From the NCBI GenBank assembly GCA_013348725.1, contig CP054689.1, forward strand, positions 2,848,501 to 2,912,500: a stretch of 64,000 nt of DNA, read 5' to 3'. The stretch comes from Ectothiorhodospiraceae bacterium 2226. GTDB taxonomy: Bacteria; Pseudomonadota; Gammaproteobacteria; GCA-013348725. The notes beneath the pieces are model-generated. The model was not told where the DNA came from and ran no database searches. It was given only the letters and a program-made list of their open reading frames with translations. The translations under genes and the position numbers were made by a program. This document shows positions 27,189 to 31,862 of the stretch, one piece after another; the stretch's first letter is position 1, and each line of letters begins with the position of its first letter.

Positions 27189-27206
27189 TGTAGGCGATCG
27201 CGTACA
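27189..27206. promoter_or_regulatory. GlrR-like operator dyad 1a (TGTA-N10-TACA)
   Basis: TGTA (27189-27192), ten bases, TACA (27203-27206); with one extra pair it is GTGTA-N10-TACAC, a perfect dyad. The form matches the published GlrR site TGTC-N10-GACA of Enterobacteria except at the C/G pair. It lies 55 bp before dyad 1b. Confidence 0.7.
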
Positions 27207-27243
27207 CCCTAACGAATTGATATTCCGTTACCGAGCCTCGAGT

Positions 27244-27261
27244 TGTAGAGGGATTGCGACA
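27244..27261. promoter_or_regulatory. GlrR-like operator dyad 1b (TGTA-N10-GACA)
   Basis: TGTA (27244-27247), ten bases, GACA (27258-27261): one base off the enteric consensus. It starts 82 bp before the -24/-12 promoter at 27326, a usual distance for a sigma54 enhancer. Confidence 0.7.
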
Positions 27262-27325
27262 CGCGGTTAAACCGATATCCCTGATTTAGTTTGTAAGTGT
27301 CGGATATTACGCGCTAATGCCCATG

Positions 27326-27341
27326 TGGCACGGGGTTCGCA
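27326..27341 (+). promoter_or_regulatory. sigma54 (-24/-12) promoter 1
   Basis: TGGCACGGGGTTCGCA matches the RpoN consensus TGGCACG-R-NNN-TTGCW at all but one position, with GG (27327-27328) and GC (27339-27340) separated by exactly ten bases. The predicted start is about 27352. No protein gene follows before the terminator at 27577, so it would drive an RNA. Confidence 0.82.
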
Positions 27342-27351
27342 TCACCCGACG

Positions 27352-27617
27352 CGCGGTTTCCTCGAGCATGACTCGGCTCGGGGAGTAGGGATGAGCATCA
27401 TCCTTCCGTGTCGCTGGAGCTGATCGACCACGCGCATCGGGGTGTGCGTGGTTGCGGACCGGGCACTACGGCGTGCGCGTCAGGCTGCGGGGAAGCGCCA
27501 CGCAGCGCCGTACAGGTTCTCGGGGCCCTGCCGGTCCGCACAGCCTCAGAGCGACTTGGGCCAGGATGGCCCCACACTGCCTAGGAGCGGCGCCTACGCT
27601 CCAGGCAGTTTTTTTTT
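27352..27617 (+). ncRNA. Candidate sigma54-driven small RNA (GlmY-like by position)
   Basis: A ~266-nt transcript is predicted from the sigma54 promoter to an intrinsic terminator. It is rich in stable stems: ACCACGCGCA/TGTGCGTGGT (27427-27452), a long-range stem GCGGACCGG/CCGGTCCGC (27454-27462 with 27531-27539) enclosing TACGGCG/CGCCGTA (27467-27473 with 27506-27512), GGGCC-AGGAT-GGCCC (27558-27572) and the terminator stem. No plausible long protein is encoded; a 69-codon frame (27442-27651) runs through the terminator. A 10-codon frame with a GGGGAG leader lies at 27391-27423. In Enterobacteria the GlrR/sigma54-controlled sRNA gene glmY sits beside glrK; here glrKGR begins 0.7 kb downstream. 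Sequence homology to GlmY/GlmZ is not established. Confidence 0.68.
27577..27617 (+). terminator. Strong intrinsic terminator of the candidate sRNA
   Basis: CTGCCT (27577-27582) pairs with AGGCAG (27603-27608) and GGAGCG (27584-27589) with CGCTCC (27597-27602); one bulged A, a 7-nt loop, then nine T (27609-27617). No annotated gene precedes it on this strand for 600 bp, which is why an RNA gene is proposed. Confidence 0.95.
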
Positions 27618-27671
27618 GCCACCATGCGCGAACAGAACAAGAAACGCCTAAAAACAACCGGTTGAATAACC

Positions 27672-27689
27672 TGTAAGCGTTTGCGTACA
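27672..27689. promoter_or_regulatory. GlrR-like operator dyad 2a (TGTA-N10-TACA)
   Basis: TGTA (27672-27675), ten bases, TACA (27686-27689), extended to CCTGTA-N10-TACAGG. Same form as dyad 1a, and again 55 bp before its partner dyad. Confidence 0.7.
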
Positions 27690-27726
27690 GGATAACCGAC
27701 TGATTTCCAGTAGAAGAAGATGCGGG

Positions 27727-27744
27727 TGTCCAGGATCACCAACA
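27727..27744. promoter_or_regulatory. GlrR-like operator dyad 2b (TGTC-N10-AACA)
   Basis: TGTC (27727-27730), ten bases, AACA (27741-27744): one base off the enteric GlrR consensus. It starts 82 bp before promoter 2, the same distance as dyad 1b from promoter 1. Confidence 0.65.
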
Positions 27745-27808
27745 GCGGCACCGGGTGCGGGGCGCCGAATGTCGAACAAGCGACGGATTCTAAAGGATCA
27801 GCACCAAC

Positions 27809-27824
27809 TGGCACGGTTGTCGCA
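27809..27824 (+). promoter_or_regulatory. sigma54 (-24/-12) promoter 2
   Basis: TGGCACGGTTGTCGCA, again a single deviation from the RpoN consensus and at the same base (C for T before the GC). GG is at 27810-27811 and GC at 27822-27823. The predicted start is near 27835, 59 nt before the ATG of the 71-aa secreted protein. The leader carries a hairpin GGTCCC-AGGAT-GGGGCC (27837-27853). Confidence 0.82.
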
Positions 27825-27893
27825 CTGCCTTAGCGCGGTCCCAGGATGGGGCCACACCGATAACGACAACCATCCACTGTCAGGAGACAACAT

Positions 27894-28109
27894 ATGAATA
27901 AGAGCATTCTTTCCGTTGCGCTGGGTCTCATCTTCAGCTTCGCCGCGATTCAGGCCGTCCACGCCGACGTGATCGAGGCCGATCAGGAAGCGCAGATGCT
28001 GATGGCAGACGCGCCCGCCGGGCTGCCGGATCAGGAAGCCGAGAGCGGCGACAAGGAGAAGGAAGCCGAGGAGAAGGATGGGGAAGCCGGGACCGACATG
28101 CTTCCGTAA
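27894..28109 (+). CDS. 71-residue secreted acidic protein under sigma54 control
   Basis: The protein begins with a clean signal peptide (SILSVALGLIFSFAAIQAVHA, cleavage after Ala24) and leaves a ~47-residue mature chain dominated by Glu, Asp and Lys with no cysteine, rather like a disordered acidic peptide. The ribosome site AGGAGA lies before the ATG. Upstream is a sigma54 promoter with two GlrR-like dyads, downstream a 13-bp-stem intrinsic terminator, so it is a single-gene unit. It precedes glrKGR. I recognise no family. By context it could be a signal, sponge or envelope-stress peptide tied to GlrK; this is speculation. Confidence 0.82.
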   Translation: MNKSILSVALGLIFSFAAIQAVHADVIEADQEAQMLMADAPAGLPDQEAESGDKEKEAEEKDGEAGTDMLP

Positions 28110-28148: not shown

Positions 28149-28194
28149 AGGTGCTGCCTCGGGGCGCGGGCGCGTCTCGAGGCAGCACCTTTTT
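28149..28194 (+). terminator. Intrinsic terminator of the 71-aa protein gene
   Basis: AGGTGCTGCCTCG (28149-28161) pairs perfectly with CGAGGCAGCACCT (28178-28190), followed by a T-run to 28194. It isolates the sigma54 unit from glrK. Confidence 0.93.
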
Positions 28195-28331: not shown

Positions 28332-29795
28332 ATGATTCGCAAGCTCAGGGTCGCGCGCGTGTCATTCTTTCGCTCCGGTTCCATACTGCGACTGGTCTTG
28401 CTCGGCTATGCGGCGGTGGCGGTGCCGTTGATGCTGGGCCTGATTGTCGCGGCCGCCTATGTCGACCAGTTGGCCCGCCATAGCCAAGTCAGCGTCTTTC
28501 ACTCGGCCAACGCCACCCAGGCCAGTCGTATGCTGGTCGAACATGTGACCGCGCTGGAGCGCACCGCGCGCCAACTCCACGTGCTGGGCGATCAGGGGTT
28601 GCTCGAGGTGTACGAGTCCAGGCGCGCGCAACTACACCAGACGATCGATGATCTGCAGGGGCTGAGGCCCGCCCATCGGGAGGCCATCGAAGGACTGCGC
28701 ACGCGCGAGGCCGAGGCCTACCGTCAACTCAGTTCGGGCGACGCGGCCCAGGTGCGCGCGGCGGTGGAAGCATTTGGCCAATTGAACGGCGCGGCACGCG
28801 CCGTGCTGGCGGAGAGCAGTCAGTTGATCGCCGACAGCGTCGCCGAGATGCAGCGTCTGGCCGACCGCACGCAGTCCCTGTTGTACTGGCAGATATGGGG
28901 ACTCATTCCCGCCGCGCTGCTGCTGGGTGCGTTCTTCGCGACCTTGATCGTGCGGCCGCTCAAGCGCTTGAGCGGCGCTATACGGCGGCTGGGCGACGGC
29001 GATTTTTCCGGCCCGATCGCGGTACAAGGGCCGGATGATTTGCGGGCCCTTGGGCGACACCTCGAGTGGATGCGCCAGCGGGTCGTTGCGCTGGAGAATC
29101 AAAAGGTGAACTTTCTGCGCCATATGTCGCATGAGCTGAAGACGCCGCTGACCACCATCCGCGAGAGCAGCCAACTGCTGAACGAAGGGGTGGCCGGCAC
29201 CTTGAACGATGAGCAGGGCGAGATCGTGCTCGTGTTGCAAGAGAGCAGTATTCGTCTGCAGCGCCTGATCGAGGACCTGCTCGATTTCAGCACCTTGGAG
29301 CTCGACGGCCCGCGATTGCAATCCGAGCGCGTGCGCTTGGACCGGCTGGTAGAGGAAGTCTGTGCCACCCACCGCCTCGCCTCTCGCACCCACGGCCTCG
29401 ACATCCGCTGCGCCCTGGTGGAGGTGTGCGCCCAGGCCGACCGCGACAAGCTGCGCTGCGTGTTGGATAACTTGTTGTCCAATGCAGTGAAGTACTCGCC
29501 AACGGGCGGGCGCATCGATGTCAGCTTGCAACTCGCGGATCGCGGCGCCGTGATCGACGTCCGTGATCAAGGACCGGGCATCCCTCCCGAGGAGCGCCGC
29601 GGGGTCTTCGAAGCATTCTTCCAGGGTAGCGCGCGCTCCAACGGCCCTATCAAGGGCACCGGGCTCGGCCTTTCCATCGCGCGCGAGTGCGTGCAATTGC
29701 ACAACGGTACCCTCGAGGTGCTCGATGCCGACCAGGGCGCACATTTTCGCGTCACCTTGCCGAACGCATGGCGGGATTGCAGTGATGCAGCGTAA
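28332..29795 (+). CDS. glrK: Sensor histidine kinase GlrK (QseE)
   Basis: A 487-residue inner-membrane kinase. Helix 1 (about 19-45) and helix 2 (about 185-205) frame a ~140-residue helical periplasmic sensor with HSANATQASRMLVEHV. A HAMP segment (IVRPLKRLSGAIRRLGDGDFSG) leads to the HisKA box with phospho-acceptor H267 in MSHELKTPLTTIRES. The ATPase domain shows DNLLSNAVKYSP (N box), DQGPGIP (G1) and GTGLGLSIAREC (G2). Domain order, GlrG-like lipoprotein gene next and sigma54 regulator after it identify GlrK. Its stop overlaps the lipoprotein gene by 11 nt. In Enterobacteria it controls glmY through GlrR; what it senses is debated. Confidence 0.9.
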   Translation: MIRKLRVARVSFFRSGSILRLVLLGYAAVAVPLMLGLIVAAAYVDQLARHSQVSVFHSANATQASRMLVEHVTALERTARQLHVLGDQGLLEVYESRRAQLHQTIDDLQGLRPAHREAIEGLRTREAEAYRQLSSGDAAQVRAAVEAFGQLNGAARAVLAESSQLIADSVAEMQRLADRTQSLLYWQIWGLIPAALLLGAFFATLIVRPLKRLSGAIRRLGDGDFSGPIAVQGPDDLRALGRHLEWMRQRVVALENQKVNFLRHMSHELKTPLTTIRESSQLLNEGVAGTLNDEQGEIVLVLQESSIRLQRLIEDLLDFSTLELDGPRLQSERVRLDRLVEEVCATHRLASRTHGLDIRCALVEVCAQADRDKLRCVLDNLLSNAVKYSPTGGRIDVSLQLADRGAVIDVRDQGPGIPPEERRGVFEAFFQGSARSNGPIKGTGLGLSIARECVQLHNGTLEVLDADQGAHFRVTLPNAWRDCSDAA

Positions 29796-30482
29796 GGCGC
29801 TGCGCGTACTCGGCGCAGCGGCGCTGATGGCGGCGATGGGGCTCAGTGGCTGCGCCCTGCTGACCTCGCAGGCGGATTCCGAACAGGCGCGGGCCGCGGA
29901 GGAGGGGACAGTCCCCCCGATGACCCGCCGCCAACTGTGGGAAGAGATGCTGAGCTACAGCGAGTCGCTGTCCGCCTTGCCGCCGGAGGCCCGCAATACC
30001 GCGCATGTGCAGACGCATTTGCAGGCCACGCTGGACGGCGCGGCGGCCGATTACGCCGCACGGCCGGAGCCGATCTACCTGCTGCGCTATGGGTTGCTGG
30101 TGCTGGCGGCGCGGGCCGACGAGGACGAGCTCGAACGCGTGCGCCGGGAGATCGGGGCGTATATCGCGCAACTCGGTCTGGCGGGCGAGCACAGCGAGTG
30201 GCTGGTCACGGCGCGCCTGCTGCACTACATCTTGGGTGAACACGCGGCCGCCCGGGTGGCGCAACGCGAGCTTCGCGAGGTCCACCGCGACCTGACGGAT
30301 CGGATCGCGACGATGGAACAGGACCATGCGGCGGAACGCGCCGCGCTCAAGCGCGAGAATGACGCCTTGCGTGAACGCATGGCCGCGCAGGAGGCTGAAT
30401 TCAACGACAAGCTGGAACAGCTGCGCAGCATTGAACGCCAGCTGCACGAACGGACCGGAGCCGAAGGGCTCAGGGGGTTACC

Positions 30483-30486
<4 letters not shown>
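29785..30486 (+). CDS. glrG: GlrG/QseG-like outer-membrane lipoprotein
   Basis: A 233-residue lipoprotein between kinase and regulator. The signal ends LSGCALL with the lipobox cysteine near residue 23. The body is helical (RRQLWEEMLSYSESLSALP, ARLLHYILGEHAAARVAQ) and ends in a long coiled coil (about 170-225: MEQDHAAERAALKRENDALRE). In enterics QseG is the lipoprotein of the qseEGF operon and is reported to interact with the QseE kinase. Sequence conservation with QseG is low and the call rests mainly on order and architecture. The ATG is at 29785, inside the end of glrK; the long upstream frame is a shadow. The stop overlaps glrR (ATGA). Confidence 0.75.

Positions 30487-31862
<1,376 letters not shown>

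Follow-up and report, generated by a model that had tools for sequence, protein, structure and literature searches.

The interval between purB and glrK raises the question of which genes are controlled by two closely spaced sigma54-type promoters that lie just upstream of a glrK-glrG-glrR gene cluster, and which activator reads them. GlrR, also called QseF, has been studied mainly in Enterobacteria, where its targets are glmY and rpoE, both of which it activates through TGT-N12-ACA sites with the help of IHF (PMC6075780). Based on the analysis below, it is very probable that the purB-glrK interval contains two GlrR-dependent sigma54 units assisted by IHF, one for a structured non-coding RNA and the other for an exported protein of 71 amino acids.

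Two control modules of the same geometry

An initial annotation of the window (the whole 64-kb stretch of DNA that was analysed) listed four dyads and two -24/-12 elements, and direct reading of the sequence located all of them. Together with two IHF-type sites, they are as follows.

27189-27206, no strand assigned: dyad 1 of module 1, putative GlrR site, TGTAGGCGATCGCGTACA (TGTA-N10-TACA)
27210-27222, minus strand: IHF consensus of module 1, TATCAATTCGTTA, perfect match to WATCAANNNNTTR
27244-27261, no strand assigned: dyad 2 of module 1, putative GlrR site, TGTAGAGGGATTGCGACA (TGTA-N10-GACA)
27326-27341, plus strand: P1, sigma54 -24/-12 element, TGGCACGGGGTTCGCA
27672-27689, no strand assigned: dyad 1 of module 2, putative GlrR site, TGTAAGCGTTTGCGTACA (TGTA-N10-TACA)
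27693-27705, minus strand: IHF-like site of module 2, AATCAGTCGGTTA, one mismatch
27727-27744, no strand assigned: dyad 2 of module 2, putative GlrR site, weak, TGTCCAGGATCACCAACA (TGTC-N10-AACA)
27809-27824, plus strand: P2, sigma54 -24/-12 element, TGGCACGGTTGTCGCA

As had been reported, P1 and P2 each differ from the consensus by one base at the same place (TCGC versus TTGC). The spacing described for them was also correct, with dyad starts 55 bp apart in both modules and dyad 2 beginning 82 bp before the promoter, measured to the -24 element, which puts the two dyad starts at 82 and 137 bp upstream of the -24/-12 element in either module. The fourth dyad (27727) is the weakest of the set. 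Absent from the earlier account are the putative IHF sites, which lie between the dyads at equal offset and complete both modules. When aligned in register, the modules are approximately 45% identical across 180 bp, and their best local match consists of the first dyad and the neighbouring IHF-like site. A promoter scan found no overlapping sigma70 promoter at either module.

The twin geometry had been judged hard to obtain by chance, and both shuffled sequences and a genome-wide pattern scan agree with this. The expected number of 55-bp twin dyads was 0.00 per shuffled window, and when the 64-kb window was Markov-shuffled 300 times, a single module occurred once and two modules never. With the pattern relaxed to TGGCA and two TGT-N12-ACA dyads at variable gaps ahead of it, the genome of 2,956,257 bp gave exactly two matches, both within the interval 27189-27824, and the reversed pattern, used as a control, gave none in the same 2.96 Mb. 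The promoter motif TGGCACGN4TYGCW alone occurs five times in the genome. It follows from these shuffle and genome-scan statistics that the twin geometry is not a chance find.

A candidate RNA gene and a gene for a small acidic protein

The initial annotation was silent on the products of P1 and P2. The features found downstream of the two promoters are listed below; we infer both ends of both transcripts.

27352-27617, plus strand: unit 1, putative non-coding structured RNA of ~266 nt, 5' end deduced from P1
27558-27572, plus strand: AGGAU-loop hairpin (CsrA-type motif) in the unit 1 RNA
27577-27617, plus strand: intrinsic terminator of unit 1, bulged 12-bp stem followed by T9 (direct reading and fold)
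27837-27853, plus strand: AGGAU-loop hairpin at the 5' end predicted for the mRNA of unit 2
27878-27889, plus strand: AGGA-loop hairpin containing the unit 2 Shine-Dalgarno sequence
27894-28109, plus strand: unit 2, 71-aa protein that apparently has a signal peptide, with an acidic tail and no domain found
28149-28194, plus strand: intrinsic terminator 3' of unit 2, 19-bp stem (terminator scan)

The codon scores of unit 1 ranged from -0.5 to -0.9 bits per codon over the six frames, compared to +0.38 to +0.58 for the neighbouring genes, and the ORFs 27442-27651 and 27452-27676, which run across the unit, were rejected as coding sequences on their strongly negative scores. The predicted fold of 27352-27622 has an energy of -144.9 kcal/mol against -119.8 ± 5.5 kcal/mol for shuffled sequences (z -4.6), and none of 200 shuffles was as stable; this is a single-sequence prediction for an RNA without homologue among 368 further genomes from the class, in which only short matches of at most 42.8 bits, none of them useful, were obtained. 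In its own genome the RNA is present in a single copy. A search of the window against Rfam yielded no match for unit 1 at the gathering score, and a permissive threshold added only chance matches, mostly on the second terminator. The built-in terminator scan misses the unit 1 terminator, probably because the stem is bulged, and the fold displays it. With no coding signal, a strong fold and no Rfam match, the best reading of unit 1 is a gene for a non-coding RNA of approximately 266 nt with its own terminator, so that the product of P1 looks like a candidate RNA.

Inside this candidate RNA lies an ORF of ten codons (27391-27423), with a GGGGAG ribosome site at 27391. On this ground the product of unit 1 might be a micropeptide instead of a functional RNA, which we consider highly improbable, given the lack of a coding signal in any frame of the unit and a fold that is far stronger than those of shuffled sequences.

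For unit 2, the codon score of +0.565 corresponds to native codon usage. The apparent product is a small acidic secreted protein, export being predicted from its sequence, and P2 would thus serve a small secreted-protein gene. The 71-aa protein has no Pfam or NCBIfam match and contains no EF-hand or BON domain. In its leader, the two AGGA-loop hairpins were matched by none of 1000 shuffles, and this leader shares an AGGAU-loop hairpin of the CsrA type with the RNA of unit 1. Within that RNA, the 3' part (27537-27578) resembles the segment spanning the -12 element and leader of unit 2 (27821-27858), with CGCAC, GCCT, AG, GCG, CAGGATGG and CCACAC occurring in this order in both; the similarity is marginal. 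We rejected the idea that the 5' region of unit 2 descends wholly from unit 1, as there was no significant alignment beyond two stretches, namely dyad 1 together with the adjacent IHF site, and the segment with the AGGAU hairpin.

GlrR as the probable activator and the module in relatives

The three genes downstream of unit 2 are arranged in the order glrK-glrG-glrR.

28332-29795, plus strand: glrK, sensor histidine kinase with HAMP, HisKA and HATPase domains, orthologues found
29785-30486, plus strand: gene for a glrG-like lipoprotein, lipobox LSGC, named by position
30483-31862, plus strand: glrR, sigma54-dependent response regulator, assigned by profiles and recognition helix

No confident family assignment was obtained for the GlrG-like protein, which is identified by its position and lipobox. 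The GlrR protein contains receiver, sigma54-interaction and HTH domains (Pfam). Its score against the NCBIfam GlrR profile NF011695, 595.8 bits, is the best of 111 families, the next being NtrC with 437.3 bits, and falls below the equivalog cut-off of 763. By eye, its recognition helix, RNRTE(F/L)YKLL, hardly differs from the one in enterobacterial GlrR, which at glmY binds TGT-N12-ACA sites with the assistance of IHF (PMC6075780). The genome also encodes RpoN, as well as RapZ, GlmS and CsrA.

The module was then compared among approximately 90 proteobacterial glrKGR loci, from genomes that belong to the same class at closest. Dyads together with a sigma54 element were found upstream of glrK or downstream of glrR in 45 of these ~90 loci, which are not independent (a few pairs are congeneric) and were searched with thresholds chosen after a first look. 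A strict version of the pattern, applied to whole genomes, was present in 16 of 369 genomes and gave 0 control matches; 14 of the 16 encode GlrR (Fisher p=4e-9, with the GlrR-positive set defined as the 73 genomes with GlrR at E<=1e-150). By coordinates, half of the strict modules (8/16) are no more than about 5 kb away from glrK or glrR. Some strict modules away from glrR (L199, L200, L203 and L212) precede ORFs whose translations give the impression of glycosyl-hydrolase-like, periplasmic-binding-like and acyltransferase-like proteins.

In 37 units of relatives, the distances between dyad 2 and the -24 element form clusters at about 82, 92, 104 and 113 bp. When periods of 6 to 20 bp were searched blindly, the best was 10.6-10.7 bp (R=0.70; Rayleigh p ~2e-8 at 10.5), and none of 2000 random sets was phased as strongly. 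The 82 bp of the window, kept out of the fit, is on phase (8.5 versus 8.62 modulo 10.5). The initial annotation had proposed to look for its dyad-55-dyad-82-promoter pattern upstream of glrK in related genomes. The two-dyad sigma54 module and the phase of the 82-bp distance recur in relatives; the dyads of relatives are mostly 63-68 bp apart, approximately one helical turn more than the 55 bp of the window. IHF-consensus sequences accompany the module as well, with 7 perfect and 16 one-mismatch sites in 36 units, against 0.1 and 3.7 expected. In most relatives the IHF site is located at -31 to -33, approximately 32 bp before the -24 element, versus between the dyads in the window. The dyad consensus of relatives is TGTCGC-N6-GCGACA, from which the window departs by its TGTA half sites and its weak fourth dyad.

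That both units are targets of the adjacent GlrR, as initially suggested, gains computational support from the GlrR profile and helix, the presence of rpoN, the 45 of ~90 loci and the 14 of 16 genomes, and the adjacent GlrR is the best explanation for the activation of units 1 and 2. The sites could also be read, alone or together with this protein, by another NtrC-type activator, in particular by a second GlrR paralogue encoded at genome positions 257581-258942. The paralogue is 59% identical and has a near-identical recognition helix, and there are ten NtrC-type matches in the genome. However, the modules adjoin glrKGR in the window, other lineages also keep the module next to glrKR, and no canonical dyad pair or module was found at the locus of the paralogue (L098, genome positions 248000-266000), which makes such an activator improbable. 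The latter locus is a second glrR-glrK-glrG-like cluster, followed by genes for an EF-hand protein and a PRC-barrel protein; a sigma54-like sequence, TGGCACGGGTTTTGAT, can be read by eye upstream of the EF-hand gene.

With the adjacent GlrR as activator, the following mechanism can be proposed. GlrK, together with the lipoprotein GlrG, would phosphorylate GlrR, which would bind the paired TGT-N12-ACA dyads on the side of the helix that faces the promoter. The DNA would be bent by IHF at the site between the dyads, and GlrR would open the RpoN polymerase complex at P1 and P2. Transcription from P1 would then generate a terminated, highly structured non-coding RNA of approximately 266 nt from the region that is held by glmY in Enterobacteria, and P2 would yield a short terminated mRNA for the acidic exported protein of 71 amino acids.

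Possible functions and comparison with known systems

In proteobacteria, the products most often seen behind GlrR-type sigma54 modules are small exported proteins, mainly EF-hand-like (L009, L019, L135, L147, L154, L159, L164, L178, L032 and others) and further BON-like (L021, L027, L028, L039 and L042), with a low-complexity acidic protein as an additional type; these classes were called by eye from translations. The 71-aa protein of the window would fit the low-complexity acidic group. RNAs occur as alternative products. In two enterobacterial loci (L037 and L044) the product is GlmY according to Rfam, and in five loci of the Halomonadaceae type an RNA of 350-465 nt that is not in Rfam precedes glrK and follows a sigma54 promoter that has GlrR-type dyads.

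L022, 7340-7805: Halomonadaceae-type RNA
L023, 7390-7740: Halomonadaceae-type RNA
L024, 7350-7800: Halomonadaceae-type RNA
L025, 7398-7795: Halomonadaceae-type RNA
L187, 4380-4752: Halomonadaceae-type RNA

This RNA carries an invariant ACCCTTCAGTTCCCTGCGTA ahead of its terminator, and a GGCANGGAYGCC hairpin is retained in each of the five sequences. Among these, 16 pairs show two-sided changes, with an overall covariation term that is unfavourable. These products suggest an old, helically phased GlrR-IHF-sigma54 module that is shared by many proteobacteria and usually precedes genes for small exported proteins, with regulatory RNAs as alternatives. The window appears unusual in that it combines an RNA and a protein, with a separate copy of the module before each of them.

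For the candidate RNA, we judge the most likely role to be that of a post-transcriptional regulator of envelope functions that works through RapZ or CsrA. In a RapZ-based version, the unit 1 RNA would be a GlmY homologue too diverged to be recognized, and would influence GlmZ and glmS as a decoy for RapZ. It lies near the position of GlmY in the region upstream of glrK, with unit 2 between the RNA and glrK, it has a GlrR-type sigma54 promoter and a terminator, and both RapZ and GlmS are encoded. Nevertheless, unit 1 matched neither GlmY nor GlmZ, even when E values up to 10 were admitted, although the GlmY covariance model (RF00128) readily finds GlmY in the two enterobacterial loci, and the duplex energy of the RNA with the glmS leader, a weak, global test, was no better than that of shuffles. 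We therefore regard a diverged GlmY as unlikely. Much the same standing is given to a CsrA/RsmA link between the units, in which CsrA would shut the unit 2 leader at its pair of AGGA-loop hairpins, with the RNA of unit 1 competing through its own AGGAU hairpin. The shared AGGAU hairpins and the Shine-Dalgarno hairpin do suggest CsrA control: the leader pair is not reproduced by shuffling, the RNA contains one clear hairpin, csrA is present, and the RNA of Halomonadaceae retains its own hairpin throughout. On the other hand, the second AGGA-type hairpin of the unit 1 RNA overlaps the terminator stem, leaving one or two sites, far fewer than the multiple GGA hairpin loops by which sponges of the CsrB or RsmY type are recognized; AGGA is present in Shine-Dalgarno sequences anyway, the motif was spotted after the fact, and the likeness of the two transcript segments is only slight.

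The layout in which GlrR controls its neighbour seems old, and the comparison of loci indicates that unrelated genes now stand behind the promoter. More speculatively, the GlrR-sigma54 promoter on the glrK side may be an old slot into which unrelated regulatory RNAs were recruited independently (GlmY, the Halomonadaceae RNA and the RNA of the window), and which the lineage of the window has twice, so that one signal would produce both an RNA and a secreted protein that are linked post-transcriptionally by the shared CsrA-type hairpin.

The closest known system is the glmY-glrK-glrG-glrR (glmY-qseEGF) locus of Enterobacteriaceae, which likewise has a GlrR/QseF-type regulator, TGT-N12-ACA sites, IHF, a sigma54 promoter and a structured RNA upstream of glrK (PMC6075780). 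In contrast, the RNA of the window is not GlmY by Rfam, there are two tandem modules of which the second would drive a secreted protein, and each module has two dyads instead of three sites, with no overlapping sigma70 promoter by scan. The GlrR-linked modules before EF-hand-like or BON-like proteins (L009, L019, L027, L039, L135 and L178) share the two dyads, the helical phasing, the sigma54 promoter and a small exported product with the window, which differs in having a protein without EF-hand or BON domain, a spacing of 55 versus 63-68 bp, and the IHF site between the dyads. The Halomonadaceae RNA resembles the unit 1 RNA in its GlrR-type dyads, sigma54 promoter, intrinsic terminator and NGGA-loop hairpin, but no likeness in sequence was noticed, and no second unit was seen in Halomonadaceae. 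With CsrB, CsrC, RsmY and RsmZ, the RNA of the window shares the AGGAU hairpin and a genome that encodes csrA, but it has one clear site versus many and no Rfam match. The comparison of loci provides targets that can be tested for an envelope-stress system of which little is understood, and it brings forward RNAs outside Rfam. It also leads one to ask if GlrG and GlrK receive feedback from the exported proteins in the periplasm. The arrangement of GlrR, sigma54 and glmY was known, and what the window would add to it is a candidate non-coding RNA and a secreted protein within one local regulon.
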